DNA of 64,000 bases from positions 186,001-250,000 of the forward strand of contig NZ_JAMAYG010000002.1 in the NCBI RefSeq assembly GCF_023712425.1, written 5' to 3'. The DNA is from Rothia sp. P100 (lineage in GTDB: Bacteria > Actinomycetota > Actinomycetes > Actinomycetales > Micrococcaceae). Made by a program: the position numbers and the translations under genes. Of the stretch, positions 20,462-42,728 are shown one piece after another; position 1 is the stretch's first letter; each line of letters begins with the position of its first letter. The notes below the pieces were generated by a model. That model saw only the letters and a list, made by a program, of their open reading frames with translations, had not been told where the DNA came from and did no database searches.

Positions 20462-20475
20462 AAAGATAAGCAATC

Positions 20476-25575: not shown

Positions 25576-25647
25576 TAAGCGGGAGCAAAGAGGGGCACCG
25601 GTAGAGTGGGAAGCATAGTTCTTTCCCACGGTGAAACGAGTTGACGC

Positions 25648-26913: not shown

Positions 26914-28368
<1,455 letters not shown>

Positions 28369-28378
28369 CCACCGGGGC

Positions 28379-28425
28379 GGCAGGGGAGTTAGCTGAGCTA
28401 ACCCTGCCACCCCACTTAGAAAGTG
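28379..28425 (+). repeat. Terminator after the glycosidase gene; left copy of island-flanking repeat
   Basis: A hairpin (GGCAGGG...CCCTGCC with an inner GTTAGCT/AGCTAAC stem) lies just after the GH1 stop. The stretch from 28382, AGGGGAGTTAGCTGAGC and the ~27 bases after it, recurs at 40094-40137 with about four differences. It is a likely terminator and also the left member of a direct repeat pair around the 11.7-kb island. Confidence 0.75.
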
Positions 28426-28591
28426 GTTCTACCCCTCCAAAGCGAGGCAGGCGTACGGTCCGCCTGCTGGTTCAAGACTGGTTTAAATCGTCTTGTTAGT
28501 GAAACGAACCAGAAGAGGGGATCAGTCGGGGCACGTGTGCGCCAGCGATACTAGTTTTACAATATCTTTAGAATGAGATTCCTTGAACAAA
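28426..28591. other. Non-coding segment at the left edge of the island
   Basis: No gene is seen. There are short inverted repeats such as CTGGTTC...GAACCAG around 28469-28514 and AAGAC...GTCTT, but no recognisable integrase site or gene fragment. Confidence 0.4.
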
Positions 28592-28725
28592 GGGGCCCGA
28601 CCCCCGGAAAGTAGACACGGGGGATGTGATCAGGAAGCAGATCTCAGCGTAACAGGACATTGCTCCTCAAACACTGCTGGAGCGAGATACCCGCACCAGG
28701 AATGCCGACGCGTGGTGTTGTAGCG
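28592..28725 (-). mobile_element. IS3-family element remnant (134 bp, orfB 3' end and one terminus)
   Basis: These 134 bases are identical to 32531-32664, the left end of the complete IS3-family element. They include one terminal repeat and the C-terminus of the transposase (RRHSWCGYLAPAVFEEQ). Homology stops abruptly at 28725, where the TetR fragment starts. The fortuitous reading frame 28660-29049 joining the two is not considered a gene. Confidence 0.93.
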
Positions 28726-29049
28726 ATCGAGACGCTTGACTGGGCGACTGCGCAACTCTTCTTGATCCCGACGACCGAACTGGACAGGCGACGACAGGCG
28801 ATTCGCAATCAGCTTGGCGACGATGCGCGCGTTCAGCGCCAACTCGCCTACCTCCATGAGTCACTTAGCATCCGGCTGCGCGATGCCTACGTTCGCCGCC
28901 TCGGCATAGACCCCGCCGACACATCTGACTTGCGTCCACAGATTCTCGTGGGGCTTTACCTCTCTCTCGCTACTGAGGTGTCGGGCCGGTCACAATCACC
29001 GGAAGAGACGCGCCAGCGGTGGATTGCGTCGCTTCGCAGTCTGCTTTGA
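28726..29049 (+). pseudogene. C-terminal fragment of a TetR-family regulator
   Basis: The frame starting exactly at the IS junction encodes 107 residues: TLDWATAQLFLIP, a helical middle and PQILVGLYLSLATEVSGR ending in RWIASLRSLL. This looks like the ligand-binding C-terminal half of a TetR regulator; the DNA-binding helix-turn-helix is missing, removed with the rest of the IS. It is encoded just upstream of and in the same direction as the ABC-F/MFS pair and may once have repressed it. Family assignment rests on pattern only. Confidence 0.6.
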
Positions 29050-29099
29050 GAGGTCGGCACTGCTATCGACATTTACATGCTTGGTTGCGGAGGTGGGGA

Positions 29100-29129
29100 T
29101 TGAGCGTTGCCGACCTTATGGGGTACACT
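29100..29129 (+). promoter_or_regulatory. Promoter of the ABC-F/MFS operon
   Basis: TTGAGC (29100-29105), an 18-base spacer and TACACT (29124-29129). The predicted start point, about seven bases downstream, coincides with the ATG at 29136, so the short leader peptide may be translated from a leaderless mRNA. Confidence 0.6.
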
Positions 29130-29135
29130 GGAAGC

Positions 29136-29156
29136 ATGCATTTGTATTTCCTGTGA
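29136..29156 (+). CDS. Putative leader peptide MHLYFL of the ABC-F/MFS operon
   Basis: ATG CAT TTG TAT TTC CTG TGA encodes the six-residue peptide MHLYFL right at the predicted transcript start, 160 bp before the ABC-F gene. Short leader peptides upstream of ABC-F and other ribosome-protection genes commonly act as sensors of stalled ribosomes. Existence and translation are inferred from position only. Confidence 0.45.
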   Translation: MHLYFL

Positions 29157-29289
29157 CGGTTGAGTAGGCCTACCGCGCTCGTTGAGCAACTCCGAGCTAG
29201 CGACGGCCGCTCGTTCTGACCCTGGAAGGGTCCCCGTCATTTGCGTGCCCGCTGGCTGTTTGGCTCGTCGTGGTGCGCCTTGCTGAAGG
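29157..29289 (+). promoter_or_regulatory. Candidate attenuator between leader peptide and ABC-F gene
   Basis: This untranslated segment can form several competing hairpins, including GACCC/GGGTC (about 29218-29232) enclosed by GACGG/CCGTC, and GCTCG/CGAGC pairings around 29188-29215. Mutually exclusive stems after a leader peptide suggest antibiotic-responsive attenuation. No classical U-tract terminator was found, so the mechanism could equally act on translation. GAAGGA at 29284-29289 is the ribosome-binding site. Confidence 0.4.
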
Positions 29290-29295
29290 ATTTGA

Positions 29296-30951
29296 ATGCT
29301 TACCCCTACTAACCGTCATCCGGCGCGCCATCGCGCGCAACTCACCGCTTCCGACGTCTCCGTAATGCGAGGCGTAACCCCGGTGCTCAACCATGTCGAT
29401 CTCGTCGTCACTCCCGCGTCCCGTGTGGCGATCGTCGGAGAGAACGGGCGCGGAAAGACCACACTTCTGCACGCGCTCGCGGGCACGCTGGTACCTGATA
29501 GTGGAACGATCCAGCGCATCGGCACGCTCGGGCTCGCTGAACAAGAGATGGACTCCACCGACAACCGAACCGTTGGGCAGGCCGTCGCGGAGGCCATCGC
29601 CGAACCGCTCGCAGCGCTGGCCACACTCGACGACGCCGCTGCCGCTCTCGCGGAAGGGAGTAGCGAGGCCGCAGAGCAGTACGCTGCGGCCTTGGAAGAT
29701 GCGGAAGCGCTCGACGCTTGGGATGCCGAGCGCCGGGTACAAATCGCGCTCGAAGCACTCGACGCCGAAACCGACATGACGCGGTTGCTCGCTGATCTGT
29801 CTGTGGGGCAGCGATATCGAGTGCGGTTGGCCTGCCTGTTGGGGGCTGAAGATGATTTCTTACTGCTGGACGAGCCCACCAATCACCTCGACCGCAGCGG
29901 ACTTGATTTCTTGACCATGCAACTCCGCACGCGCAACGGTGGTGTCGTCATCGTCAGCCACGATCGCGCGCTGCTCTCTGACATTGCGGAGACGGTGGTC
30001 GACCTCGATCCGACACCTGATGATCGCCCCCGCATCTACGGCAACGGGTACGCGGGATACCGAGAAGGGCGCGTGGCCGAGCGGGAACGCTGGGAGCAGG
30101 AGTACGACCGCCAGCAGCAGGAACAGGCCCGGCTGCAGGACAGTCTCAGCGCTGCACAGAACCGACTCGTATCGGGTTGGCGACCGGAGAAGGGGTCACC
30201 GAAGCACGGCCGCGCGACGCGCGCGGGCGGGCTGGTGCAGAGCGTGCACCGACGCCAGGAAGCACTCGAAGCACACGCGGTGACGGTACCTGAACCACCG
30301 CAGCTATTCCAGTTCCCCGACCTGCCCACACGAAAAGGGGCGGTGCTACTAAACGTCGACAACGTGAGCCTTGCCGGGCGGTTAGCGCAGCCAGTGTCGT
30401 TCGAACTCTCGCACCGCGGCAGGCTCGTGGTCACCGGCTCGAACGGGGCCGGAAAGTCGACGCTCCTGAGTATCGCGGCGGGCGAACTACTGCCAGATAC
30501 GGGAACAGTGCGGACATCCCGTGGCACGCGTTTGGGTTTTCTTCGTCAGGAGACGATGCTGCCGCCTGATCGCCGGGCGAACGAGGTATACGCCCGACAC
30601 CTCGACGAACTCGTCGGTCAAGGAACGCTTCAATCATCTGAGGCGGTCGGTCTCGGTCAACTTGGACTGCTGCGATCGCGCGAGGCAGGCAAACGAGTGG
30701 GTGAACTGTCGATGGGTCAACAACGACGCCTCGATCTGGCGCTCGTACTCGCGGCACGCCCGCACGTGCTACTACTAGACGAGCCCACCAACCACCTCTC
30801 CATCGCGCTCGTTGACGAACTCACCGAGGCACTCGGGGCTACCCAAGCGGCCGTCGTACTGTCGACCCACGATCGGCAACTCCTGCGCGATGTCGCCCAA
30901 TGGCCTCATGTACATCTGATGGCGATGGCTGAAGGCGAGGCACTGGTATGA
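29296..30951 (+). CDS. ABC-F family ribosomal protection ATPase (antibiotic resistance type)
   Basis: 551 residues with two ABC domains and no membrane segments. Walker A motifs are GENGRGKTT (about 48-56) and GSNGAGKST (about 380-388); signatures LSVGQRYR and LSMGQQRR; Walker [12 protein letters not shown] and [11 protein letters not shown]. The inter-domain linker (about 245-330) is charged and helical. ABC-F proteins of this layout bind the ribosomal E site and displace antibiotics such as macrolides, lincosamides or pleuromutilins. The stop overlaps the ATG of an MFS gene, recalling mef/msr pairs. G+C content and codon use look higher than the neighbouring defence cassette, consistent with a separate origin. 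Drug specificity is unknown. Confidence 0.88.
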
Positions 30952-32210
30952 GCAACACCATCAAGCTACGCGCACTCCGCCCATTGGCATCACGTGATTA
31001 CCGTCTCCTGTTTGCCGCCGTCGGCATCGAGGTATTCGGGACCGGTATGTGGACGATCGTCATGGTCTTCCAAGTACTCGCACTCGATGACAGCCCACTT
31101 GCCTTGTCGGCGGTTGCAACCGGAATGAGTCTTGGCCTGTTTGCGTTCTCCGTTCTCGGTGGGGTTGTCGCAGACCGGTTCTCCAAACGGCGGATTCTCA
31201 TTACAGTGCAGGGCTCAACGGCCGCGATCATGACCGCCGTGGCGGTCCTGTCGCTCACCGGGAATATCGAACTTTGGCACGTCGCCGCAGCCTCGTTCGC
31301 GATGGGTGCCGGGAGCGCCTTTTTCTACCCTGCGTACAGCGCTTACCTACCTGTGGTCCTTCCGCCGGAGCAACTCCTGGCCGCGAATGGGCTCGAAGGG
31401 GCGCTCCGTCCATCGATGGGGCAAGGGCTGGGCCCGGCCCTCGGTGGAGTCATCGTCGGTATGTTCTTCCCCGCTATCGGAGCGGTCATCGTCGCGGCTT
31501 CGTACGCGATTGCTTTCGTCATCACGTTGTTTCTTAGCCGTCGTGACGAACACACTGAGCCCACTCCTCCCGAGGATCGCCCGACCGTCTGGGGTGACCT
31601 TCGTGCGGGGGTTGCCTACGTGGCTCGTACACGCTGGTTGCTTTGGACGCTGATCTTCGGGTCTTCGCTTGCGCTCATTGTCCAAGGCCCGATCGAAGTT
31701 CTCCTCCCGTTCCTCACCCGCGACCGATTCGAGGATGCTGAAGCTACTTTCGGGTTCCTTCTGGCCGCCTATGGGATAGGTGGGGCTGTCGGTTCGCTGA
31801 TCGTGTCGTCGTTGAAGCTTCCTCGTCGGTACTTGACGTTTATGATCCTGTGCTGGGGTGGAGGAACACTACCTCTTGTGGTCATTGGCGTTGCCGACAA
31901 TTTGATCCTCATGCTCTCCGCGCTCTTTGTCGTCGGTGCACTCACCGGGGCTGGCGTTGTCGTGTGGGGAACATTGCTGCAACGGTTGGTGCCGCTCGAC
32001 ATGATCGGCCGAGTCGCCAGCCTCGACTTCTTCGTTTCGATCGCGTTCATGCCGGTCTCAATCGCCATCGCAGGGCCGCTCTCACTGTTGGTTCCCATCC
32101 CCATCATCTTTGTGATTGCGGGAGTCATTCCGCCAGCTCTCGCGTTGATCGCATTGCTGGCCGGGCGCATGCGCCAGACCGAGGACAGTCAACCACTAGA
32201 CGCAGACTGA
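30948..32210 (+). CDS. MFS efflux transporter (MFS_3/Tap/Mef-like)
   Basis: 420 residues with 12 predicted helices. The N-terminus [26 protein letters not shown] and the loop [15 protein letters not shown] (MFS motif A) are typical of the MFS_3 group that includes Tap, Mef and EntS-like exporters. The start ATG overlaps the ABC-F stop (ATGA), so the two are translationally coupled. Coupled ribosome protection and efflux suggests resistance to one class of ribosome-targeting drug. A perfect terminator follows. Confidence 0.88.
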
Positions 32211-32215
32211 CCTCG

Positions 32216-32530
32216 ATGGCTCTGGGAATATCCCGGACGTTCGGCTTCGAGCCTTTAGTGGCTCGAAGCCGAACTTTTCGTACCGCTGGCCCGATCTCCG
32301 CAGAAGACTGCGCGAGGCTGATCTTCGTGCGTGCCGGATCGGTTCTGTTGCACAACGAGCTGGGTGTGCAACAGGCGAACGTTGGAGACGTCATCACATT
32401 GGGGTCAAATGCCATGTTCGGCTATGAACCGGAAGGCTTCGTGACCGTGACAACGATCTGCCTTGATCTCGACTACGTTATCGACCAAGTGTTCTGGCAA
32501 CATGCCGCCAAGTTCACCGACCGGCTGGAG
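32216..32530 (+). pseudogene. N-terminal fragment of an AraC-family regulator, cut by IS3-family element
   Basis: About 105 residues with the AraC-type cupin sensor pattern: FGFEPLVARSRTFRTAGP, LIFVRAGSVLLHNEL and VGDVITLGSNAMFGYEPEG. The frame runs directly into the left end of the insertion sequence, and no AraC helix-turn-helix is found on the far side, so the rest has been lost. The ATG 32216 overlaps the terminator of the MFS gene (32239-32278), so the true start may be later. Confidence 0.6.
32239..32278 (+). terminator. Terminator of the ABC-F/MFS operon
   Basis: A perfect 15-bp stem GTTCGGCTTCGAGCC / GGCTCGAAGCCGAAC with six-base loop and TTTT immediately after. It starts 28 bp after the MFS stop, inside the reading frame of the truncated AraC gene. 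Confidence 0.92.
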
Positions 32531-32568
32531 GGGGCCCGACCCCCGGAAAGTAGACACGGGGGATGTGA

Positions 32569-33465
32569 TCAGGAAGCAGATCTCAGCGTAACAGGACATT
32601 GCTCCTCAAACACTGCTGGAGCGAGATACCCGCACCAGGAATGCCGACGCGTGGTGTTGTAGCGGGTACACCAGCGGAAAACAACTCGCCGGCACTGCAA
32701 CTGATTGGCAAACGTCTTTGCGTCCTGGAGGACCTCACGCTTCAACGCGGCGTTGAAGGACTCCGCCAGGGCGTTATCAGCGCTGCTGCCGATCGCGCCC
32801 ATCGACTGCCGGATCCCCAGCTGCGTACACGTGTCCTGGAACGCATGGGAAGTGTAGACACTGCCATGGTCCGAGTGAAAAATTGCGTCGTCGAGACTTC
32901 CGTGCTGGCCCTTGGCCATCACCAGGGCGTCCTGGACCAGGGAAGAACGCATGTGATCGGCAATCGCGAAGCCGACCAGCCGGCGGGAGAAACAGTCGAT
33001 GACCGTGGCCAGGTACATATTCGACCCGTCCGCGATCGGCAGGTACGTGATATCGCCGACGTAGACCTGGTTCGGTGCCGGGGCGGTGAACCTCCGGCCG
33101 ACGAGATCCGGAAACACCGGCTTCCTCCCATCCGAGACAGTCGTGGTGACCTTGCGTTTCTTGGAGTAGCCAACCAGTTGCAACGAGCGCATGATCCGGG
33201 CGACTTTCTTGTGATTGACCGGACTGCCGGGCGAGTCGTCGTTGAGTTGCGCCGTGATGCGTTTGGAGCCGTAGCAGCCGCGTTCTGCGGCGAACACGGC
33301 CTTGACCCGTGCGCCGAGGATCGCGTCGCTGAGCAGGCGTTGTGTCCTGGCGGAGGAGGTGTTTCTCCATTTGTAATACGAGGACCGGTTGAGTTTCAGA
33401 ACCTCACATAACCGCTTGACCGAATGGCTGTTCTTGGCGTCGTCAACGAACTGGAAGCGGATCAC
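32569..33465 (-). CDS. IS3-family transposase OrfB (DDE catalytic subunit)
   Basis: 298 residues, complete. The DDE triad is visible in YVGDITYLP, FHSDHGSVYTS and SADNALAESFNAALKREV, with the N-terminal HTH_21 region (CYGSKRITAQL). The frame overlaps orfA by four bases, so production of the fused OrfAB transposase by -1 frameshifting is likely, as usual in this family. The C-terminal end also occurs in the remnant at 28592-28725. Confidence 0.95.
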   Translation of the reverse strand: MIRFQFVDDAKNSHSVKRLCEVLKLNRSSYYKWRNTSSARTQRLLSDAILGARVKAVFAAERGCYGSKRITAQLNDDSPGSPVNHKKVARIMRSLQLVGYSKKRKVTTTVSDGRKPVFPDLVGRRFTAPAPNQVYVGDITYLPIADGSNMYLATVIDCFSRRLVGFAIADHMRSSLVQDALVMAKGQHGSLDDAIFHSDHGSVYTSHAFQDTCTQLGIRQSMGAIGSSADNALAESFNAALKREVLQDAKTFANQLQCRRVVFRWCTRYNTTRRHSWCGYLAPAVFEEQCPVTLRSAS

Positions 33466-33773
33466 CAGGTCGTCTCTTCCGCAAAATATTTCGCGGCCTT
33501 GCGCAGGATGTCGCGCTCTTCCTTCAGTCGGGCGTTTTCCCGTTCCAGCTGGCGGATACGTTCGGCATCGGTCACCGATGTCGGGGTCTGCGAGGCGGCC
33601 TCGGTGCTGGTGGTGGTGCGGGCGCCGGTGCCGTATTTGCGGACCCAGATCTGGAGGGTGTTGCGGTTGACGCCGAGTTCGGTGGCGAGGGCGTTGATCG
33701 ATACGCCGGGGGAATTCTCGTAGAGGGCGACCGCGTCGTGGCGGAATTCCTCGGTGTAGGTCTTGCTGGGCAT
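33462..33773 (-). CDS. IS3-family transposase OrfA
   Basis: 103 residues with a helix-turn-helix (KTYTEEFRHDAVALYE, ATELGVNRNTLQIWVRKYG) and a leucine-zipper-like C-terminus (IRQLERENARLKEERDILRK), the standard OrfA layout for binding IS ends. Intact and in frame. Confidence 0.95.
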   Translation of the reverse strand: MPSKTYTEEFRHDAVALYENSPGVSINALATELGVNRNTLQIWVRKYGTGARTTTSTEAASQTPTSVTDAERIRQLERENARLKEERDILRKAAKYFAEETTW

Positions 33774-33845
33774 GGTGGCAGGTTACCTTTCTTCCCCGGC
33801 AGAAAGCCGGGTTGTCGGGTGTCTACCAAACAGGGGTCAGGTCCA

Positions 33846-34081
33846 AGTCCCTCATGGATCTTTAAAAAGATCAGCCCGGATACGTTGTTGTTCCTGGTCC
33901 GCGGCTGATGTTGGGAGTTACATCAGCAGATAAGAGGAAATCTAATGACTTAGCGTATGGATGGCCGGGGTATTCACGAAGTCTGCTGTAGACTTCCGAT
34001 TTCCCGCCGCAATCAGCAGGTTGCGATTATCATATATCCTGAGTAGGTAGTGTTAAAGAAAGATGATACTTATAGTTGAGC
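33846..34081 (+). promoter_or_regulatory. Upstream region of the sce7726/sce7725 cassette
   Basis: No gene is seen in these 236 bases. They contain hairpins GATCTTT/AAAGATC-like at about 33857-33872, CTGATGT/ACATCAG at 33907-33928 and GAAGTCT/AGACTTC at 33978-33996. TTGCGA (34021-34026), a 17-base spacer and TAGGTA (34044-34049) could be the promoter of the following operon. Confidence 0.4.
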
Positions 34082-35056
34082 ATGACTAGCTTGTTTTTTT
34101 TAGAACAAAAATGCCACTATTACGCTAGTCAGTTGATTCCCTATGCAATGAAACAGTCTTCGGAAGGTGCCCAAATGTTTACCCAAGATGCTCTTCTCCT
34201 GGAGCGCATCTTCTCACCCACGATTTTTACGGATTTTGCTAAGCACCAGAAATCTGCTTTTTTCTCCAAGATTGTCTCGTCAGAAGCTTACCGAGAAAAA
34301 TTCGATACCCAGTTCTCCGTCGGAAAAGCATTCGATCAAGCTTTCTCTTTACTCGCCCAACCCGGCACACGCAACGAATACATCTATAAAAACACCATCG
34401 CCGAAAAGATCCTTCTCGGCCGCCACTCACTGAATACAGCTGTACTCGTCCAGGAAATGCGAGCGCTACGTTCCAAAGCAGACACCGTTATCTTCAACGG
34501 AACTTCCACTGCTTATGAAATAAAATCCGATCGCGATTCACTCGCTCGACTACCTATACAAGTAGAGGATTATCGAAAAGTCTTCGCCAAAGTCATAGTA
34601 GTAGCTGATGCAAAGCACCTTACGACATTAGAGAAAATTCTCCCTGCTGACGTCGGCATACTAGAACTGAATAAAAAGCTATCTTTATCCACAATCCGTC
34701 AAGCAGAACAAAGTCTTAGCACTCTCGAGAAACCAGCAATACTTGATGCTTTAAAACTTTCTGAACTTCAGATGATGCTCAATGACCTAGGCTGTGAAAA
34801 GCCTACGGTGCCCAATACTCGGCAGCGACGTGTTTATACTGAGATTCTGAGTGAATTTCCTGTGGAACAGCTACATGCTTCTATGGTGAAGACGGTGAGA
34901 AGTTCTCGTTCGCAGGCGTCCATGAGTAGTTATCTCTCTCAGCTACCTCAATCGTTATATGCAGCAGCTTTACGTTCTCACCCTTCTGCTACGCAAAAAA
35001 ACCATATACTAAAGGCAATACAAACCCCACTGTACGAAGCTGTTAGTTGGTCTTAG
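34082..35056 (+). CDS. sce7726-like protein with PD-(D/E)XK nuclease pattern
   Basis: 324 residues, AT-rich and with codon use unlike the chromosome. I assign it to the sce7726 family by its partner and by the central block: SKADTVIFNG (Asp134), AYEIKSDRDSL (Glu146-x-Lys148) and YRKVFAKVIVVAD, which reads as a PD-(D/E)XK nuclease core; EYIYKNTIAEK just before is a plausible fourth motif. The function of the family is not established to my knowledge. ATG 34082 is used; TTG 34076 is also possible. The stop is directly followed by the ATG of the sce7725-like gene, so the two form an operon and probably work together. Confidence 0.72.
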   Translation: MTSLFFLEQKCHYYASQLIPYAMKQSSEGAQMFTQDALLLERIFSPTIFTDFAKHQKSAFFSKIVSSEAYREKFDTQFSVGKAFDQAFSLLAQPGTRNEYIYKNTIAEKILLGRHSLNTAVLVQEMRALRSKADTVIFNGTSTAYEIKSDRDSLARLPIQVEDYRKVFAKVIVVADAKHLTTLEKILPADVGILELNKKLSLSTIRQAEQSLSTLEKPAILDALKLSELQMMLNDLGCEKPTVPNTRQRRVYTEILSEFPVEQLHASMVKTVRSSRSQASMSSYLSQLPQSLYAAALRSHPSATQKNHILKAIQTPLYEAVSWS

Positions 35057-36028
35057 ATGTACTACCCAATTCTCCGGGGCAAGCAATTTGAGCTTGCTGC
35101 TATCCGTGACCTTGCCAAAGCCGATACCCTTAGATCGGATAAAGTGTTCCCGATCATTGAGCCCGTAAGAGCAAATCTTTCTACATTGCAAAGAACATTA
35201 GAGGTTCTAGAGAGCAAAGGCATCTCATCAGGTTTTATCTTTAACCCCCGTGTGGGTGAGTTAGTTCAAGAGGATCAGACACTCTCGACGTTATATCAGG
35301 AACACTTCGCAGCTTCTGATCCAGTAATTCACCCTGTTCTAGTTGTGGGAGGTTCAACGAATGCAGACGATATTGAGAGCTACAGGTATAGCGTCTCTAG
35401 TGAAGACTCCCGCCCTCTATATTTTCTACATGACTCAGCAGTTGAAGATGCCCAGGCGCTATCAAAGCTAGTTTCATTGTCTGCTCAAAACTCACAGGTT
35501 GTACATCTTTTTGAAGATGAAAACACTTCTACCCTCTATCGTAGAAAATTTAGTGACGCTCAGTGGATTCTTCTCCAGGATGGGTTTATCTCAGAGGAAC
35601 GCAATAAAGACTATAAGGATAAAGATCTCTTCACTGATCTCCATGTAGTTTACGAAGATCTTAAACTATCTGGATTTGGCGACTATCAAATTGTGGGTTC
35701 AGGATACAGAGAATCTGGTGGACCGGCTTACGCTGTTGCGTTGCATCTGACCTATATTGACCCCGCACAAGATGATGTGATGTTTGTTCGACATTTTGTC
35801 TCGGATTCAAATGAGACCTTCGCTGACCCCGGTAATAAATTCTCTGAGGCGTTGGATAAGATGATCACTTTTCTAGACAAGCATCCTGTCTTGATTTATG
35901 AAGGAAAAGCGGTAGCGGAGTTCCGGGACCTTCATACCAGAGGACACTTCCCCGGCCTGGGGTTCGTAAAAAAACTATCAATTCAGCACCACATAGAGCT
36001 GGTAGATTCCTACCTTTCAGGTAAGTAA
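35057..36028 (+). CDS. sce7725-like / T4 beta-family protein
   Basis: 323 residues starting MYYPILRGKQFELAAIRDLA, the opening I recognise from the sce7725 and phage T4 beta-protein families. The family looks like an alternating alpha/beta barrel: VFPIIEPVR, GFIFNPRVG, IHPVLVVGGS, and near the end YEGKAVAEFRDLHTRGHF. No catalytic residues are known to me. sce7725 and sce7726 proteins recur as neighbours, which fits the zero-base spacing here. A RES-type gene follows nine bases later. Low G+C again marks it as acquired. Confidence 0.75.
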   Translation: MYYPILRGKQFELAAIRDLAKADTLRSDKVFPIIEPVRANLSTLQRTLEVLESKGISSGFIFNPRVGELVQEDQTLSTLYQEHFAASDPVIHPVLVVGGSTNADDIESYRYSVSSEDSRPLYFLHDSAVEDAQALSKLVSLSAQNSQVVHLFEDENTSTLYRRKFSDAQWILLQDGFISEERNKDYKDKDLFTDLHVVYEDLKLSGFGDYQIVGSGYRESGGPAYAVALHLTYIDPAQDDVMFVRHFVSDSNETFADPGNKFSEALDKMITFLDKHPVLIYEGKAVAEFRDLHTRGHFPGLGFVKKLSIQHHIELVDSYLSGK

Positions 36029-36036
36029 TACTGCCA

Positions 36037-37101
36037 ATGGGTAACCAATATTGTAACCTCTGTCTAGGTGATGACCTGTTCAAAGTGTTGGACCCCAATA
36101 CCTGGTCTTTTTCAAGCAAGGCTTGTTGTTGCTGTGATTCAACCAACTAAAAGTTGGTAGGTGTTGATCAACTACCCGATTATTTTGAATGGGCACGTGT
36201 CATCTATCGGCCTACTGAAAAAGCTGAGGGAAAGCCCTTGCTGTCCTGGCTGAAATCAGACTGGGGGCTATTATCTACTCTTTATACTTCGCAGGCTAAT
36301 CTGCTCTTACAGGATATTGTTTCTGGCGATACATTTGATGTGTTAGCGAACCTGTTACCTGATTCTTTAGAGGATGAGAAGAATTCAGAGCGATGGAGAG
36401 AGCATAAAGAGGAGATACAGCATCGAAACCGATGGCCGCCTGGGGCTTTCGGAAGTGATGTCAGCCTCTTTGAAGAAGTCGTAAATTACCTGAGCAGATT
36501 AGAAGAGGCATCAGTAGCCGAAAATTACTATCGTGCACGGATTCATGATTCTGAAGAATCGTTTGAACCCAAGGACTTAGGTGCGCCTCCTCGTGAGAAA
36601 GCAGGCCATGGAAGGCTGAACCCTGCTGGTATTCCTTATCTCTATCTTGCTTCTGAAAAGTCAACGGCGATAGCGGAAGTCCGTCCTCACCCTGGACAGA
36701 AAGTCGTAACTGCCAGTTTTCAGATAGATACGGTGGAAAATGAGGGCTTGAAAATTGCAGATCTTGTTCAGGTTGCCTCGTTATTTTCCCCATTTGATTA
36801 TCTTGAATCTACCCCAATTTTGAGGGCTAGAGATTTTCAAGAAATGGTACGGGAGATTGCTGATGAGTTCTCACGTCCGGTGCGTCCAGATGCTGCACCT
36901 TACAGGTATGTTCCGACCCAGTATCTCTGTGAACTCCTAAAAAGAAAAGGATTTGATGGGGTAGCTTATTCTAGTGCTCTTGCCGAGGGGCACAATCTTG
37001 TTTTGTTTGAACCAGAAAAGTTCACAGCCCAGCCAGAAACTTTACAAGAACACGATATAAGCTCAGTACATGTGGACTATAGAACATTGAAGAAGTTCTG
37101 A
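36037..37101 (+). pseudogene. HEPN/RES-type protein gene with in-frame TAA after the zinc-ribbon segment
   Basis: Starting at ATG 36037, nine bases after the sce7725-like stop, the frame reads MGNQYCNLCLGDD...CCCCDSTN and then meets TAA at 36148-36150; the same frame continues without further stops to 37101. The first 37 residues have the C-x2-C...C-x2-C spacing of a zinc ribbon that normally heads HEPN/RES N-terminal proteins, and the sequence after the stop (VGVDQLPDYFEWARVIYRP) is the expected continuation. The gene therefore looks like one ORF broken by a single nonsense codon. Re-initiation at TTG 36154 could still make the RES part. Confidence 0.7.
36154..37101 (+). CDS. RES-domain protein (HEPN/RES N-terminal type), possible re-initiation product
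   Basis: 315 residues from TTG 36154. The first ~110 residues are helical and acidic, like the HEPN/RES N-terminal domain. The RES domain follows at about 120-290 with NYYRARI (Arg127/129), GRLNPAGIPYLYLASEKS, AIAEVRPHPG (Glu175) and VAYSSALAEGHNLVLF (Ser near 272), matching the Arg-Glu-Ser residues of RES toxins, which degrade NAD+ in RES-Xre toxin-antitoxin pairs. No Xre-type antitoxin is adjacent. In its place stand the sce7726/sce7725 genes. Whether this shorter frame is translated is uncertain. Confidence 0.65.
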   Translation: MVGVDQLPDYFEWARVIYRPTEKAEGKPLLSWLKSDWGLLSTLYTSQANLLLQDIVSGDTFDVLANLLPDSLEDEKNSERWREHKEEIQHRNRWPPGAFGSDVSLFEEVVNYLSRLEEASVAENYYRARIHDSEESFEPKDLGAPPREKAGHGRLNPAGIPYLYLASEKSTAIAEVRPHPGQKVVTASFQIDTVENEGLKIADLVQVASLFSPFDYLESTPILRARDFQEMVREIADEFSRPVRPDAAPYRYVPTQYLCELLKRKGFDGVAYSSALAEGHNLVLFEPEKFTAQPETLQEHDISSVHVDYRTLKKF

Positions 37102-37221
37102 ATGAAGAAAACCATTATTCGAGAACTAGGCGAAGTTGAACGGTCAGATGCGTATATCCCTGTCTGTCGGAACCATCTGGTGGATGGAAATCTCAAGAGG
37201 CAGGTGCGCAAAGACGTTTAG
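37102..37221 (+). CDS. Small ORF directly after the RES gene
   Basis: ATG 37102 follows the RES stop codon without a gap and opens a 39-residue frame: MKKTIIRELGEVERSDAYIP, then VCRNHLVDGNLKRQVRKDV. I do not recognise it. The tight spacing suggests either a small partner protein or the 5' remnant of a fourth gene truncated on its right, since sequence character changes after 37221. Confidence 0.35.
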   Translation: MKKTIIRELGEVERSDAYIPVCRNHLVDGNLKRQVRKDV

Positions 37222-37488
37222 GGCATGTCAACCAGCGAGGTCGTGGCCCATTTATAAGTCTCCTGGCCGCCGGTAGAGCGCTGAGACGGCCGCTACAAGG
37301 GCGGAGAGTCGTCAGAGAGGCGTTGGCGTGGCTAAATAGACGCTCGATAAGACCGCAAAAGGATATCGACGCTAGATTGTCTACTTTGAGACCACCACGT
37401 GTCGCACCTTGAAACCCTGAGTGGCACGGCATCGAGGGACATCGTGCCTGACTAAGGGCAGACGGCGAATATTTGAGGGTGCAGCGGA
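37222..37488. other. Non-coding junction between the AT-rich cassette and the SDR gene
   Basis: G+C rises again here. No complete gene is visible. Minus-strand frames look vaguely like a decayed transposase or other fragment, but all are interrupted and none matches a family I can name. Confidence 0.35.
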
Positions 37489-38319
37489 TTAGTTCGTGGT
37501 CTGGAACCCTGGCTGTCGCCTATAATCCTGTTGGCGTTGATCAAGAACCATGCGAATCTGGTCGACAGAGTCTTCGCCAAGGACTAAACGCAGGGGACCC
37601 TCTTGCGCAACGACGTGATTGAAAATACCCTCGGCTATGACCTCCGGCGACGACCCACCGCCCGTGGCACCAGGCTCGTTTGGCCAGGGTACAACGGCGG
37701 TACCAAAGAGCTGTTCGCGTAACTCGTCATAGGCGGGGATCGGCGTGCTGAACTGCATCCCGGTGGTTGCCCAGCAGGTATCCATAGAGCCGACCTCGAC
37801 GAGAGTGACTCGCACACCCTGGGAGCGAACCTCACCTGCCAATGCCTCGGTAAAGCCCTCGAGGCCCCACTTCGCAGCATTGTAGGTACCGAGTAGGGGC
37901 ATGGCCCCGACTCCGCCTGTTGACGAGATTTGCACAATGTGACCGCCGCCCTGGGCACGCATCAGCGGAAGCGCTGCCTGCGTGAGCCACAAGGGGCCGA
38001 GAAGATCGACGTCAAGGATTGCCCTCACCTGCTTCTCGCTAACTTCCTCGATAGCACCGACGAGACCATAGCCCGCGTTGTTCACTAAGACGTCGAGTCG
38101 ACCCGCGGCTGCGTGCGCTGCGTGCACAGCCCGTTGGCAGTCTTCTCGGTCTGCCGGATTCAACCGCAATACAGTCAGTGAGGGGTGATGCAGGGGGAGG
38201 TCACCACTGCGACTCGTGGCCATAACGCGATCACCAGCTGCCAGCACCCGCTGGGTCAAGGCAAGACCCAAGCCGCTACTTGCGCCGGTGATGAACCAAG
38301 TGTTTTTTGTTGTAGACAT
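37489..38319 (-). CDS. Short-chain dehydrogenase/reductase (classical SDR)
   Basis: 276 residues. The NAD(P) loop TGASSGLG (about 12-19), NNAGYG, catalytic Ser in VQISSTGG and YNAAK (Tyr-x3-Lys) are all intact. A C-terminal extension (PEVIAEGIFNHV, LRLVLGEDSVDQI) is typical of SDRs often annotated as oxidoreductases linked to small regulators. The substrate is unknown. It lies inside the accessory island but its G+C content resembles the chromosome. A palindrome upstream may be its operator. Confidence 0.9.
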   Translation of the reverse strand: MSTTKNTWFITGASSGLGLALTQRVLAAGDRVMATSRSGDLPLHHPSLTVLRLNPADREDCQRAVHAAHAAAGRLDVLVNNAGYGLVGAIEEVSEKQVRAILDVDLLGPLWLTQAALPLMRAQGGGHIVQISSTGGVGAMPLLGTYNAAKWGLEGFTEALAGEVRSQGVRVTLVEVGSMDTCWATTGMQFSTPIPAYDELREQLFGTAVVPWPNEPGATGGGSSPEVIAEGIFNHVVAQEGPLRLVLGEDSVDQIRMVLDQRQQDYRRQPGFQTTN

Positions 38320-38360
38320 GACTCTAATTAAAGCACCACATGAGATGCTGTGCCTAGTTT

Positions 38361-38377
38361 CTATACATTCAGGTATA
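38361..38377. promoter_or_regulatory. Palindrome upstream of the SDR gene
   Basis: CTATAC and GTATAG arms separated by five bases, 42-58 bp upstream of the SDR start. This spacing fits an operator or a dyad lying in a promoter spacer, as with MerR-type regulators, but no such regulator gene is next to it. Confidence 0.4.
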
Positions 38378-38496
38378 GCTCATCCTGACACACCGCCGCT
38401 TGGTGAGAGCGTATCACGACGTATTTACTAATCAGGTGGGGCACTGAAGCCAGTTAGCTCCAAGCTCAGTAAACCAGCTCCGCATTTATTTTGCGC

Positions 38497-38775
38497 CTAG
38501 ACTAATACCCCGGCAACATCACGACTCATAAGGGTATAGGTCAAACCATCTGAAGGTGTAAAGATACCCGCTGGAACCAAATCGCTGACGATTATCCCAG
38601 CGTCGATCATGGATGTTCGGGTGACGCGAAGGATGTAGGTGGCTACGCGGTCTTGGAAGAGGATGTCGTTGAGGTCTATGTTAACGGCTGAGCAGTCTTG
38701 GTGAGCAGTCTTGCGCTGGGGGGGGGGGGGGGGGGAGCCAGCTGGTAGACGGGTTTCTGGGGCTTTGAGCACCAC
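38497..38775 (-). pseudogene. Truncated, decayed umuD-like gene containing an 18-bp G tract
   Basis: The 92-residue frame from GTG 38775 keeps recognisable UmuD landmarks: RLPAGSPPPPP at the usual P-x-G-F-P-S-P self-cleavage region, NIDLNDILFQDRVATYILRV, and SMIDAGI with the catalytic serine. After that the sequence no longer follows the family and stops early; intact UmuD has about 140 residues and a second catalytic lysine, which is missing. A run of 18 G (38718-38735; C on the coding strand) encodes the proline run. No umuC is present nearby. It is a relic, though its frame is open in the present tract length. Confidence 0.6.
38718..38735. repeat. Homopolymer of 18 G residues
   Basis: Uninterrupted G run inside the umuD-like relic. 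Such tracts slip during replication and are also prone to sequencing length errors, so its length is uncertain. Confidence 0.85.
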
Positions 38776-38787
38776 CGAGGTGGTGCT
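38768..38787. repeat. Perfect palindrome at the umuD-like start codon
   Basis: AGCACCACC / GGTGGTGCT with a two-base centre overlaps the GTG start of the umuD-like frame and could hide it in mRNA. Confidence 0.55.
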
Positions 38788-38826
38788 TGCGCGCTTGGTG
38801 ATTATGTGTATTTACATAGCGAAACG

Positions 38827-38867
38827 ATAGTATATATGTTCTATTATTTATAGAATACATATACTAT
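38827..38867. promoter_or_regulatory. AT-rich inverted repeat (operator/promoter candidate)
   Basis: Two 18-base arms, ATAGTATATATGTTCTAT and ATAGAATACATATACTAT, differ at only a few positions and are separated by five bases. It lies between the umuD-like relic and the small ORF at 38874 and could be a regulator binding site controlling either. Confidence 0.5.
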
Positions 38868-38873
38868 GAGAAT

Positions 38874-38990
38874 ATGATGGAAATTGAAGGAGCGTTGGGG
38901 CTGTATCAAGACGGAGTTGACACCTGTTTTGATACAGGATCGACGCCGTTGGATAGAGCAGTTCGGCATGAAACTCAAGCTATATCGTAA
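38874..38990 (+). CDS. Small ORF of unknown function after the AT-rich inverted repeat
   Basis: 38 codons from ATG 38874 (MMEIEGALGLYQDGVDTCFD, then TGSTPLDRAVRHETQAIS). It starts seven bases after the inverted repeat. An internal inverted repeat CTGTATCAA / TTGATACAG (38901-38937) lies within it. No family is recognised; it may be non-coding. Confidence 0.25.
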   Translation: MMEIEGALGLYQDGVDTCFDTGSTPLDRAVRHETQAIS

Positions 38991-39101
38991 ACGACCGGCT
39001 CTGAAGACAAAATTTTATATGTGCCAAGGCTCTGGGTATTGTCCTCGTAAATCTGACCTCTAAAAATTTAAGGAGATTTAATCAAGGCTATTGATGAGAC
39101 T

Positions 39102-39689
39102 TTGGCAGGTGTGAGCAATGCACTAATGGGCACTATTTTTGGGCGAGGTATAAATATATTAGTCCTGCTCTACACCTATTTATGGGTTCTTTTTGGCAGG
39201 TCCATAGCTCCTCTCAACTGGCTTGATTGGCTGTTAAATAGTTTTTTTGGAGCAAGCCCCACCTGGCTGACAGTTGCTTCAGCCGCTATGCGCAATGGTA
39301 ATGCTGAAGGTACAGCATGGGCTTTGGTTTGTATTGCAGCAATCATAATCGTTATTCATGGAACGTTTATTAATAGAGGGAATCTGTACATACTGACTTT
39401 TGTAACGCTTCTTTTGTTGTGCTCTGTGCAAATATCAGGAAATCTATGGGGCACATATCTCAGCTATTTAGGTCTCACCTTAATACCTGTAGCCATAGCT
39501 TTTATCAGATGCTGGCTTCAAAAGGGCGGTAGCATCTGGGCATCTTTCGAAAATGTAGGGGACTGGTGGTTTTCATGGATGATGGGACCCGCTATTCACC
39601 TAGGATTGGCGACTGTAGGTCTTTGGGTAATTTTCTATAGTGTTCTGGGTAATGAGTATTTGCCTCTTGACCCAGAAAGCTCCAGATGA
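39102..39689 (+). CDS. Unknown polytopic membrane protein
   Basis: About 195 residues with roughly five hydrophobic segments (ILVLLYTYLWVLFG, TAWALVCIAAIIIVIHGTF, ILTFVTLLLLCSVQI, YLGLTLIPVAIAFIRCW, AIHLGLATVGLWVIFYSVL). I do not recognise the family. TTG 39102 is the first standard start, but an AGGAG at 39071-39075 points to an in-frame ATC at 39081, or to a lost ATG there, which would add KAIDET before the present start. The base composition is AT-rich. The stop overlaps the ATG of a serine recombinase pseudogene, so both came in together, perhaps as part of a mobile element. Confidence 0.6.
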   Translation: MAGVSNALMGTIFGRGINILVLLYTYLWVLFGRSIAPLNWLDWLLNSFFGASPTWLTVASAAMRNGNAEGTAWALVCIAAIIIVIHGTFINRGNLYILTFVTLLLLCSVQISGNLWGTYLSYLGLTLIPVAIAFIRCWLQKGGSIWASFENVGDWWFSWMMGPAIHLGLATVGLWVIFYSVLGNEYLPLDPESSR

Positions 39690-40100
39690 AAATAGGCTAC
39701 TGTCGCATATCCACCCGTGAACCAGTAGAACTTCTTGATAGTCAGGAGAAGACTCTGATGGATTACGGGTGTGAATGCTTCTGTAAAGATGTTGCTTCCG
39801 GGTTTAAGGCTTAACGTCCGGGCCTTATTGATGCACTTATATTTCGCGCGGGATGGCGACACTATTGTCGTGACTCGATTTGATTGCTTAGGTAGAACAA
39901 CGTTAGATACCTTGCGAACAGCTCGGGATTTAGACCAACGCAACATCAAGCTCCAAGCCCTGGATATAGCTACTTCTACTCAGGCAGGACGGCTTGTGCT
40001 AAAAAAGATAGCCTCCCTTGCTGAGTAGGAACATGATGTACTTTGATTGAGCCAACCAGAGATGGTATAGCATATGCCCGCTATTATGATGTTAGGGGAG
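39686..40100 (+). pseudogene. Decayed serine recombinase (resolvase/invertase family)
   Basis: The start MKIGYCRISTREP carries the catalytic serine motif, and GYVASGxK-type text follows (DVASGFKA). Then a TAA replaces the usual acidic codon before RPGLIDAL; a +1 shift leads into FARDGDTIVVTRFDCLGR and RDLDQRNIKLQAL...AGRLVL; a TAG follows LAE; and after another shift the family pattern resumes as LIEPTRDGIAYARYYDV. Two nonsense codons and two frameshifts make it a pseudogene. It reaches the right-hand island repeat, and its DNA-binding tail is missing. Confidence 0.85.
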
Positions 40101-40137
40101 TAGCTGAGCTAACCCTGCCACCCCCTTAGCAAGTGCG
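40094..40137 (+). repeat. Right copy of island-flanking repeat
   Basis: AGGGGAGTAGCTGAGC and the ~27 bases that follow repeat the sequence at 28382-28425 with about four differences. The right part supplies the -35 element (TTAGCA) of the next promoter. Recombinase homology ends where this copy begins. Confidence 0.75.
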
Positions 40138-40154
40138 AGCGCGCCGCGTATAAT
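40126..40154 (+). promoter_or_regulatory. Promoter of the nuclease-def-fmt operon
   Basis: TTAGCA (40126-40131), 17-base spacer, TATAAT (40149-40154): a perfect -10 box 45 bp upstream of the nuclease gene. The -35 lies in the repeat shared with the left end of the island. Confidence 0.75.
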
Positions 40155-40198
40155 CGATAGAGCGCCAACCGGCGCGGCTCCCAACCCGTCAGGACACC

Positions 40199-41116
40199 AT
40201 GACCACTCCTATGCTCGCTAGCGCCACCGATTACGGTCGCATGTACGCGCGCGAAGTGGGCGGTGAGCTACTGGTTCCTTCGATTACTACGGTGATTGGG
40301 CAGCAAGCCAACGACCTGAGTGGTTGGCACGGCTACATGGCTGCTAAGGCGGCGCTGGAAGACCAGCGCTCCTACAGGGCCAGCAGTTCAGCTGGCCTTA
40401 AGTTTGCGGTCATTAGAGATGCTGCCTCCGCCTCCGAACGCTTTAGGGATGCCGCCGCAGCCCGCGGGGACCGCGTGCACAACTATGCTGAGCAAGTTGC
40501 CCTGCGAGCCATGGGGCAGCCCCACGAAGTAGAGGGACACCGCGAGAACCTCATTGCTCACGGGGAGCAGGCTTTTGCTGATCGTTTTGACGAGTGGTGG
40601 GAGCTGTACCGCCCCAAGCCCCTGGCCACAGAAGTGACTATTTGGAATGAGACCGTAGGTTACGCCGGCACCCTAGATTTGGTCGCTGAGATTGCTGGGC
40701 ACACCTGCATCATCGACTACAAAACCAAGGGCACCGACCGCAAGGGTCGGGTCAAGCCGTTGGACGACAAAGTGGTCATGCAGCTGGTTGCCGGTCTCAA
40801 AGCTGAAGAAGCGCTGGTCGATGCAGAACAGGGCGACTGGGAGCCCTGGAAGCATGGTGAAGCCCCTATCTTGATGGGCGTTGCTCTGGGCGAGACCCAG
40901 GTGGTGCCTCAGCAGGCTAACCCTCATCTCCTGAAAAGCAACTGGTTCAAGTTCTGCGCCCTCAAGCGCGTGTGGGACTACAATCGGGAGCTGACCGAGG
41001 CCGATCACGAGGCGCTCATGCCGGTGATTCCACCGCCCACCCCCAAAGAGCTGGCAGCAGCAGCTCACGTCGCTGCAAGTCAGCTTGAAGAGACTCCAGA
41101 CGCCGCGGCGTCCTGA
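40199..41116 (+). CDS. RecB/Cas4-like PD-(D/E)XK exonuclease family protein
   Basis: 305 residues. The nuclease core is visible as ERGDRVH-like AARGDRVHNYAEQVA (motif with His), GYAGTLDLVAEI (Asp) and CIIDYKTKG (Asp-x-Lys), followed by helix VVMQLVAGL. This is the pattern of RecB-family exonuclease domains. Such genes are common next to def-fmt in this group of actinobacteria; the cellular role is not known. It is the first gene of a run with def, fmt and the rRNA methyltransferase gene. Confidence 0.82.
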   Translation: MTTPMLASATDYGRMYAREVGGELLVPSITTVIGQQANDLSGWHGYMAAKAALEDQRSYRASSSAGLKFAVIRDAASASERFRDAAAARGDRVHNYAEQVALRAMGQPHEVEGHRENLIAHGEQAFADRFDEWWELYRPKPLATEVTIWNETVGYAGTLDLVAEIAGHTCIIDYKTKGTDRKGRVKPLDDKVVMQLVAGLKAEEALVDAEQGDWEPWKHGEAPILMGVALGETQVVPQQANPHLLKSNWFKFCALKRVWDYNRELTEADHEALMPVIPPPTPKELAAAAHVAASQLEETPDAAAS

Positions 41117-41156
41117 TCCTGGCCCCCTGAACCCCTAGATAAGAGAAAAGAGCCCC

Positions 41157-41783
41157 ATGACCATCCTGTCCATTCGAACCGTTGGCGACCCGGTGCTGCG
41201 CACCGCCTGCGAGGAGGTCACCGTCTTTGACGCTGACCTAGAGAAGCTGATTGCTGACATGCTCGAAACCATGTACAACGTGGGAGGGGTAGGTCTGGCA
41301 GGCCCACAGGTTGGTATTTCTAAGCGCATCTTTACCTTTGGTGGCATTGATGACCGCGAGGGACACATTATTAACCCCGTGCTAGAGACCGGGCAAGAGC
41401 CGCAAGAAGGCGGTGAAGGGTGCCTGTCGGTACCCGGCGTATCTGCCGAAACACCCCGTAAAAATTGGGCACGGGTGACCGGCGTGGACTGCTACGGTGA
41501 ACCGGTGATATACGACGGTGAGGGGTTGTTTGCCCGCATGCTTCAGCACGAAACTGACCACCTGGGCGGGACCATGTTCATCGACCGGCTGGTGGGCGAA
41601 GAGAAGAAAAATGTCTGGCGCAAAATCCGCCAGAACAACTACAACGACGTCGCCGCTGCCGTGCAGGGGGAGCGCGCCGCTCACTTAAGCTCCGTCTTCG
41701 GAGCAACTGGTGGTTCTTTTGGCACAGCTCAGCCAGGAACCACGCAGAGCGGTAGCGCTCAACCCGGTTCTTTCGGTATCTAG
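41157..41783 (+). CDS. def: Peptide deformylase
   Basis: 208 residues with the three deformylase motifs: GVGLAGPQVGI, EGCLSVPG (metal-binding Cys) and HETDHLGG (metal-binding histidines and catalytic Glu). It removes the formyl group from nascent proteins. The C-terminus (after about residue 180) is a Gly/Thr/Ser/Gln-rich tail with small repeats (AQPGTTQSGSAQPGSFG) not needed for activity. It is followed by fmt after 15 bp, pairing the enzymes that add and remove formyl groups. Confidence 0.96.
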   Translation: MTILSIRTVGDPVLRTACEEVTVFDADLEKLIADMLETMYNVGGVGLAGPQVGISKRIFTFGGIDDREGHIINPVLETGQEPQEGGEGCLSVPGVSAETPRKNWARVTGVDCYGEPVIYDGEGLFARMLQHETDHLGGTMFIDRLVGEEKKNVWRKIRQNNYNDVAAAVQGERAAHLSSVFGATGGSFGTAQPGTTQSGSAQPGSFGI

Positions 41784-41798
41784 GCAGAGACAGAGAAG

Positions 41799-42728
41799 AT
41801 GATGAAAGTTATTTACGCTGGAACGCCGCAGATCGCGGTGGCCCCGCTCGATGGTCTGCTGGAGGCAGGCTACGAGGTCGTAGCTGTACTGACCCGCGAG
41901 GACGCTCCGGTAGGACGCAAGCGCGTGCTCACCCCCTCACCCGTTGCTGCCCGAGCGACTGAGCTAGGCATCCCCGTCATTAAGGCCAACCGCTGGGATG
42001 ACGAAACCCAGGATGCTGTTGCGGCGGTGGGTGCCGATATCGCCGCAGTCGTTGCCTACGGCGCTATCCTGCCCGCCCGCGCCCTGGATCTTCTGCCTCA
42101 CGGCTGGATCAACCTGCACTTTTCTGCTCTTCCTGCCTGGCGCGGTGCTGCACCGGTGCAGCGAGCACTTATGGCGGGGGAGACCGAGATTTTCTCTAAC
42201 ACCTTCCGCATCGAAACCGGGCTGGATACCGGCCCTGTTTTCGCCACCGAATCGGCGCTGGTGGGGCCTGAAGATAGTGCTGGCAGCATGCTAGAGAAAC
42301 TGGCGTCCACTGGCGGTGCCCTGCTTGCTTCAACCTTTGCTGAGATTAAAGCTGGTGCTACGGGAATACCCCAGACCGGCGATCCTACCCACGCCGCGAA
42401 GCTCACCATTGCAGACGGCAAAGTTGACTTCACACGCAACCGGGCAGACATCATTGCACAGGTACGAGGTGTAACCCCCGAACCCGGTGCCTGGTGTGAA
42501 TACGCTGGTGCCCGCTTGAAGCTGGGCCTCCTTTTGCCCAGCGACGCGCCAGCAGAGGGTGCGCCCGGTACCGTCCGTCTAGTCGCCAAAAAACCCGTGG
42601 TCACCTGTGCAGATGGCAGTCTAGAACTAACTCAGGTACAGCCTTCGGGCAAGAAAATGATGAACGCAGCTGACTGGGCACGAGGCCTTGGCTCAGCACT
42701 CACCGAACAGAAAGTAGTGCTGGCATGA
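41799..42728 (+). CDS. fmt: Methionyl-tRNA formyltransferase
   Basis: 309 residues. The N-terminal formyltransferase domain starts VIYAGTPQIAVAPLDGLL and carries the catalytic region INLHFSALPAWRGAAPVQ and the GETEIFSNTFRIETGLDTGPV loop; the C-terminal OB domain follows. It formylates initiator Met-tRNA. Two ATG codons (41799 and 41802) are adjacent. The stop overlaps the next gene by four bases. Confidence 0.97.
   Translation: MMKVIYAGTPQIAVAPLDGLLEAGYEVVAVLTREDAPVGRKRVLTPSPVAARATELGIPVIKANRWDDETQDAVAAVGADIAAVVAYGAILPARALDLLPHGWINLHFSALPAWRGAAPVQRALMAGETEIFSNTFRIETGLDTGPVFATESALVGPEDSAGSMLEKLASTGGALLASTFAEIKAGATGIPQTGDPTHAAKLTIADGKVDFTRNRADIIAQVRGVTPEPGAWCEYAGARLKLGLLLPSDAPAEGAPGTVRLVAKKPVVTCADGSLELTQVQPSGKKMMNAADWARGLGSALTEQKVVLA

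Follow-up and report, generated by a model that had tools for sequence, protein, structure and literature searches.

The 64-kb window of Rothia sp. P100 analyzed here (64,000 nucleotides of contig NZ_JAMAYG010000002.1) contains a cassette of three co-directional genes on the forward strand, arranged in the order sce7726-sce7725-RES. Across the cassette (34175-37101) the G+C content is 0.44, as against 0.56 for the whole window, and all three products score above the curated cut-offs of their families, in agreement with the AT-rich trio described in the original prediction, an earlier annotation of this stretch. The first gene (34175..35056) encodes a protein of 293 amino acids (aa) that belongs to the sce7726/P4-CII family and has a predicted PD-(D/E)XK nuclease-type fold. 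Its stop abuts the start of the second gene, sce7725 (35057..36028), whose 323-aa product (NF033831) is predicted to fold as a TIM barrel and may be distantly related to the Beta protein of satellite phage P4. The third gene opens at ATG 36037 and comes in two pieces, namely a cysteine-rich, zinc-ribbon-like 5' piece (36037..36150) and, in the same reading frame, a RES-domain open reading frame (ORF; 36154..37101; 315 aa, TTG start; PF08808) predicted to encode a nicotinamide adenine dinucleotide (NAD+) phosphorylase effector. The intergenic gaps had originally been given as 0 and 9 base pairs (bp); the former is upheld (35056/35057), and the latter is 8 bp.

The three proteins of the cassette

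The sce7726 product scores 177.5 bits against NF033832, for which the curated cut-off is 70, and is accordingly a member of this family, as is the CII protein of P4 at 151.4 bits. Profile comparison of sce7726 with P4 CII gives a probability of 99.8 and an E-value of 2e-28 over a region spanning the nuclease motif, and the PADLOC 'cll' model is matched both by the window protein (E 1.5e-28) and by P4 CII (3.2e-113). The reading frame is open from TTG 34076, and the cassette had earlier been listed from 34082 onwards. However, translation probably begins at ATG 34175, because AAGGTG lies just upstream of this codon, the resulting protein (293 aa) is nearly as long as that of two other Rothia copies (295 aa), and residues 1-29 of the longer ORF are modelled mostly with a predicted local distance difference test (pLDDT) score below 50. 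Five residues, D136 (34481-34483), E148 (34517-34519), K150 (34523-34525), D154 and Q162, are invariant in 93/93 sce7726 proteins; the motif had been recognized originally as D134, E146 and K148, and counted from TTG 34076 its residues take the numbers used here.

Structural modelling, which had been proposed along with the original prediction, returned a nuclease-type fold for sce7726 (pLDDT 91.9) and a TIM barrel for sce7725 (pLDDT 93.9). The single Foldseek match of the sce7726 model below an E-value of 0.001 is SPO1766 (3dnx). In VIA comparisons the same structure (Z 9.1, 141 residues, root-mean-square deviation (rmsd) 4.5) is followed by the restriction enzyme PaqCI (Z 8.6, 153 residues, rmsd 5.5) and, in the middling range under Z 8, by XisH (6.7), a Pyrococcus repair endonuclease (6.3), an McrBC chain (6.0) and the ligand-activated nucleases Card1 and Can2 (5.8 and below). 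We take 3dnx, PaqCI and the weaker matches to be PD-(D/E)XK proteins. The predicted core fold, together with the D...ExK...Q motif, places sce7726 in the PD-(D/E)XK superfamily, and nuclease activity is predicted for it. Matches of the sce7726 profile to CagY and to an immunoglobulin-blocking protein fall outside the nuclease motif, in parts of long chains, and were dismissed.

The sce7725 product scores 301.7 bits against NF033831 (curated cut-off 60) and hence belongs to that family. Its model aligns by VIA with 3qqw over 198 residues (Z 12.1, rmsd 3.7), many other barrels tying with this match; the Foldseek matches are weak, and a further match is to an uncharacterized Gordonia phage protein (E 4.8e-10, TM 0.64). 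Since a set of largely polar residues (E35, N63, N183, D209, H230, H246, S249, K261 and K305) is invariant in 94/94 sce7725 proteins, the alignment hints at an enzyme or a ligand-binding barrel. The "T4-beta" likeness noted originally was misattributed, in that the relevant Beta is the protein of satellite phage P4, to which sce7725 is possibly distantly related, judging from the sequence comparisons weighed below. A scan of viral contigs for P4 beta itself yielded three close copies.

The RES ORF scores 68.9 bits against PF08808, well over the gathering score of 23.2, and 33/33 aligned relatives match the same model; against the NCBIfam ParT model it stays under the cut-off (19.8 versus 110 bits). 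From ATG 36037 the frame runs into a TAA at 36148-36150 and resumes at TTG 36154. This stop had been missed in the original prediction, whose cassette extends to 37221; 37102-37221 constitutes a separate 39-aa frame which, among the fetched loci, has matches only in the R. endophytica and window copies. An identical TAA is present in a copy from R. endophytica (L018), while a second copy in that same genome (L019), with an sce7725 protein 62% identical to that of the window, has an uninterrupted RES frame of 354 aa. Two CxxC motifs precede the RES domain in 78/81 aligned proteins, the three exceptions being the window copy, L018 and L019. Because the TAA interrupts the RES frame, the cassette of the window has probably lost some of its function, unless translation re-initiates at TTG 36154 and so yields the downstream piece.

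Within the RES domain, R154 (36613-36615), Y164 (36643-36645), E175 (36676-36678), S274 and N281 (36994-36996) are invariant in 81/81 proteins, and R, Y and E align with those of ParT 6d0i in a weak match (E 0.65). These residues may correspond to known active sites, an equation that draws in part on the weak ParT alignment. The RES toxins studied so far act as NAD+ phosphorylases; in NatT, for which this activity has been shown, the residues concerned are R23, R82, Y93, S184 and N193 (PMC11535050). The earlier HEPN/RES label is sustained for the RES part. The HEPN/RES N-terminal domain (PF18870, HEPN_RES_NTD1) is matched at E <= 0.01 by 11/33 aligned RES proteins, but the window ORF, whose N-terminus is missing, does not match it. 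Fibrillarin and histone matches of RES have chance-level E-values. The operon partners of RES are sce7725 and sce7726, with no Xre gene, so that the cassette is not a RES-Xre toxin-antitoxin module. On the plus strand no promoter-like site was detected by a promoter scan, and terminator-like sites (5 against 2.9 expected) are uninformative.

Each of the three protein families has candidate catalytic residues that are invariant. Those of sce7726 and sce7725 also bear on a signalling scheme, in which an ADP-ribose product made by RES (such as ADP-ribose-1''-phosphate) would switch on the sce7726 nuclease and the sce7725 barrel would bind or degrade that product, the output being DNA cleavage rather than loss of NAD. 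Consistent with this are the invariance of the sce7726 motif and of the polar residues of sce7725, as for enzymes, the predicted TIM barrel, the appearance of Card1 and Can2 among the structural matches, and a 2022 survey that counts RES among both the signal-generating and the NAD-using domains of prokaryotic immunity (PMC9503650). However, the Card1 and Can2 matches are only middling, and sce7726-sce7725 pairs lacking RES are common, implying that the nuclease does not always depend on a RES product. On the whole, we consider this scheme quite improbable.

Recurrence and co-inheritance of the trio

A search of species-level genomes with an sce7725 profile recovered at least 429 relatives, the best 80 of which were kept as loci. 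Downstream of sce7725 there is a RES gene, intact or fragmented, in 80/80 of these, and sce7726 precedes it in 79/80; sce7726 is absent only from the Xenorhabdus locus L081, in which sce7725 and RES are intact. The distance from the sce7725 stop to the start of the RES ORF is between -8 and +9 bp in 60 loci, more negative in 16, for which the start giving the longest ORF was used, and longer in 4 with an interrupted gene. The carriers span at least eight phyla (Actinomycetota, Pseudomonadota, Acidobacteriota, Thermodesulfobacteriota, Nitrospinota, Planctomycetota, Cloacimonadota and Spirochaetota). Over 78 loci, the distances between pairs of loci are correlated among the three proteins, with Mantel r values of 0.919, 0.919 and 0.940 as against permutation maxima of 0.22-0.34. 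Within the genus Rothia, four copies of the cassette occur in 3/35 genomes, all four with RES and two of them with the stop.

RES, counted as whole where 85% of its profile lies in one ORF, is broken in 5 of the 78 judgeable loci, two of the 80 running off a contig end; L018 passes by this measure since its RES domain is whole. In addition to its absence from L081, sce7726 is broken in L028 and cut by a contig end in L064. A broken sce7725 was seen only in L062, a count in which broken copies are under-sampled since sce7725 served as the query.

It is near certain that the RES-linked trio forms one unit. The original prediction had allowed for the third gene being an accidental neighbour, and this idea is rejected: RES is adjacent in 80/80 of the nearest loci, and the gene belongs with sce7726-sce7725. 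A related alternative, in which the pair acts alone with RES as a chance neighbour or in which the trio is mobile cargo unconnected with defence, can draw on the lack of RES in 11 of the 104 loci whose sce7725 proteins were placed in a tree. The adjacency over at least eight phyla and the correlated distances largely contradict it, and we regard it as highly improbable.

Beyond the best-scoring loci the linkage is looser. On the tree of 104 sce7725 proteins the RES label requires 5 changes, as against a mean of 10.7 on shuffling, and 0/500 shuffles were as low. One clade of 84 proteins is uniformly associated with RES; the window is not part of this clade and belongs to a group of 12 (support 97/80) comprising 8 with RES and 4 without, long branches making this placement unsure. 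On viral contigs RES follows sce7725 in 18/29 loci, 10 of the 18 representing one contig type, and among the 11 without RES one (L144) stops at a contig end and cannot be judged. Twelve plasmid records contain sce7725, and of the 6 opened 4 have RES. Random draws found sce7725 in 3/394 genomes of the class of the window and in 4/369 of the class of a Burkholderia genome. Taking sce7726 as the starting point, 5 of 274 genomes from the Burkholderia class have the gene, adjoining sce7725 in three (one the centre genome, one truncated) and a convergent Pfam Beta gene in two. Beside sce7726 on plasmids of S. aureus (L006) and Mycolicibacterium alvei (L009) no sce7725 was found, Beta not being searched for there. 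In another locus (L119, 6899-9097), only about 90 aa of a truncated sce7725 frame are present, and 3 bp further on begins a 641-aa ORF resembling a DNA methyltransferase.

Mobile islands and defence-gene neighbours

A search of 5,426 E. coli genomes detected the cassette in 18, each place covering at least 80% of the query. Six of these 18 loci were opened, and all six, which lie on related mobile elements and are not independent of one another, are situated in mobile islands with defence-annotated genes and with integrase or relaxase genes nearby. A KwaB-like gene is found 1-4 kb upstream in five of them, and further neighbours are caspase and TIR genes (two loci), a type I restriction-modification system with McrBC (one), AbiE with BREX (two) and kinase-phosphatase genes (one). 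Two of the loci have a RES gene whose annotation gives a frameshift, and in one of the two this applies to sce7725 as well. Strain CT02 has the same KwaB-like flank with other cargo. In L186 and L189 a caspase-family gene, a short TIR-domain gene and hypotheticals adjoin the cassette on the opposite strand, and one hypothetical beside the cassette of L186 is annotated as belonging to a Pycsar effector family.

For 17 loci outside the E. coli set, all ORFs of at least 150 aa within 6 kb were compared with control ORFs, 118 of the 136 called in 17 regions located far away in those genomes. At E <= 1e-15, PADLOC models matched 52 families in the 113 flanking ORFs versus 11 in the 118 control ORFs, a comparison that counts families rather than proteins, with several models matching one protein and mad3 turning up in both sets. 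Among the 25 of the 52 flank matches listed are Septu PtuA, PDC-M01A/B, a type II restriction enzyme and methyltransferase, PDC-S58 and mad3. The control families include DpdJ, SspA, DndA, BrxHI, SngC, mad3, a control protein and DpdF, several of which are taken for housekeeping cross-hits. The Pfam domains of the flanks comprise IMP dehydrogenase (4), GMP synthase (4), exonuclease VII (3), resolvase (3) and relaxase (2), and none of these is among the 25 Pfam families listed for the control. By sequence motif, guaA or IMP dehydrogenase lies within 8 kb of 6/80 loci (L028, L033, L038, L043, L062 and L092), suggesting a recurrent insertion site for islands.

The trio is also carried by an integrating conjugative element of Salmonella houtenae and is listed in a mobilizable element of P. 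aeruginosa (PMC9394441). In a Delftia island, RES and sce7726 occur together with an unnamed ATP-binding protein, and there is a NADAR gene as well (PMC8248536). The genes given for a region of Leptospira include both sce7726 and sce7725 (PMC12457778), and sce7726 and a protein of the beta family appear among tabulated loci that are specific to strains (PMC13414232).

Such mobility is also what one would expect of an addiction or stabilizing module of the toxin-antitoxin type, in which a resident RES toxin is neutralized by sce7725 or sce7726 and any phage defence is incidental. The cassette occurs on plasmids and on mobilizable and conjugative elements, RES toxins with Xre antitoxins have been tied to plasmid stability and persistence (PMC11535050), and Gop, the toxin of the P4 system, is toxic without Beta (Rousset et al. 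2022, PMC9122126). However, the cassette lacks an Xre antitoxin, pairs without RES persist, and the E. coli neighbours are defence-annotated. L062, which keeps an intact RES without an intact sce7725, and L081, which keeps it without sce7726, likewise fit poorly with either protein being a strict antitoxin. We consider an addiction module unlikely.

The surroundings of the window copy were compared with those in R. endophytica. A segment of 15.5 kb (27277-42770), encompassing an insertion sequence (IS), the cassette, an SDR-like gene and ORFs at 41157-42728, is collinear between the two at 98.5% identity in a gapped alignment, while blocks of more than 800 bases aligned on either side of it show 85-94% identity, with 20410-27277 left out of the comparison. 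This segment may perhaps be a recently exchanged block. The composition of the cassette had been described as distinct from both sides of a mosaic island; nothing shows that the cassette moved alone. A transfer of the cassette by itself between the two Rothia had been hinted at by an ungapped comparison and was dropped when the gapped alignment showed the whole of 27277-42770 to be collinear. The ORFs at 41157-42728 resemble what we take to be def and fmt. Two 134-base stretches of R. endophytica match the window at 28592-28725 and 32531-32664 with 100% identity, and this pair brackets 29296-32210, which presumably contains an ABC-F-like ATPase gene and an MFS transporter-like gene, in a layout like that of a composite element beside IS3-type transposase genes. 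Repeats of about 75-90 bases cluster at 18669-19443 and have matches at several places in the corresponding DNA of R. endophytica.

Proposed function and relation to known systems

Given the above observations, the most likely interpretation of the trio, from sequence comparison, is a system of the abortive-infection type that would destroy NAD+ and is related through CII to gop-beta-cII. A role in defence as such is likely, and NAD depletion as the specific mechanism has about an even chance. The complete proposal, namely that the cassette is a mobile three-gene anti-phage operon and a RES-armed relative of gop-beta-cII that acts by depleting NAD, is one that we favour with moderate confidence; P4 gop-beta-cII itself is a proven anti-phage system. 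In such a system the PD-(D/E)XK protein of the sce7726/CII family would recognize or process invading nucleic acid, and the sce7725 barrel might restrain the effector or couple it to the sensor. On phage infection the released RES protein would split NAD+ with phosphate, and the infected cell would stop growing. The layout envisaged in the original prediction, a nuclease-type protein with a predicted NAD-destroying effector, is borne out by the sequences.

More tentatively, and with slightly less than even probability, RES NAD+ phosphorylases may be working immune effectors, and CII/sce7726 with Beta/sce7725 a general sensor-control pair that takes different effectors, such as Gop, RES or perhaps none. 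The trio makes the question of RES as an immune effector directly testable, in that it is present in E. coli, measures only about 2.9 kb and has candidate catalytic residues in every gene. Its CII-family member ties the operon to a defence system of a satellite phage whose protective effect is proven but not explained, and solving the trio could explain the roles of Beta and CII in gop-beta-cII.

The original prediction had staked the three-gene idea on the adjacency of RES and the proximity of defence genes. The idea survives on the strength of the 80/80 loci and the six E. coli islands, with the reservation that linkage is not universal, and several observations weigh against the anti-phage proposal. 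With the two centre genomes left out, RES follows sce7725 in only 1/5 carriers from the two random draws, the tree divides into 93 proteins with RES and 11 without, and the group of the window itself into 8/12 and the remainder. The sce7726-sce7725 pairs are often without RES, and RES is therefore dispensable for the persistence of the pair. The nearest neighbour is identical for all three proteins in only 25/78 loci, and L062 and L081 tell against a strict antitoxin here too. The mutual relatedness of the six E. coli loci and the counting of PADLOC matches by families reduce the weight of the neighbourhood evidence. The link to Beta is weak: the window sce7725 reaches only 16.6 bits against the P4 Beta model PF14350, over residues 2-55 and under the gathering score of 27; no more than 3/36 sce7725 proteins, that of the window included, match Pfam Beta at E <= 0.01; hhalign gives a probability of 55 and an E-value of 1.2e-4, indicating weak homology; and P4 Beta is named in none of the 50 BFVD rows listed for the sce7725 model. 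Finally, no functional study of the sce7726-sce7725-RES trio was found in a literature search that left most subscription papers outside its reach.

Three kinds of known systems invite comparison. The RES-Xre modules, such as NatR-NatT, ParST and MbcAT, share with the trio a RES domain that scores over the Pfam cut-off and has the conserved R, Y and E, which align weakly with ParT. The trio differs from them in its longer RES protein, which has a zinc-ribbon-like start and, in 11/33 cases, a HEPN/RES N-terminal match, in scoring below the ParT cut-off, and in having sce7725 and sce7726 as partners rather than Xre. The PD-lambda-2 system resembles the trio in that a third, P4-beta-like component is required for defence, though not to neutralize its toxin (Vassallo et al. 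2022, PMC9519451). It differs in its toxin pair, which consists of a HigB-like protein and an Xre-peptidase, and the accessible text of that paper mentions neither sce7726 nor RES. The gop-beta-cII system of P4, which confers protection from phages lambda and P1 (Rousset et al. 2022, PMC9122126), has the 133-aa Gop in place of RES as its effector, and its gop-beta genes are convergent with cII, whereas those of the trio are all co-directional. Moreover, the sce7725 of the trio lies below the Pfam Beta cut-off, and the PADLOC gop and beta models match none of the window cassette proteins at E <= 1, so that a Gop-type toxin and a PADLOC-grade beta are both lacking. Nevertheless, both are sets of three genes, including a toxin, on a mobile element, Beta may be distantly related to sce7725, and P4 CII falls by the NCBIfam cut-off within the sce7726 family. 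Hence one member of the gene pair, for which the original prediction knew of no established function, belongs to a family with a representative in a proven anti-phage system.

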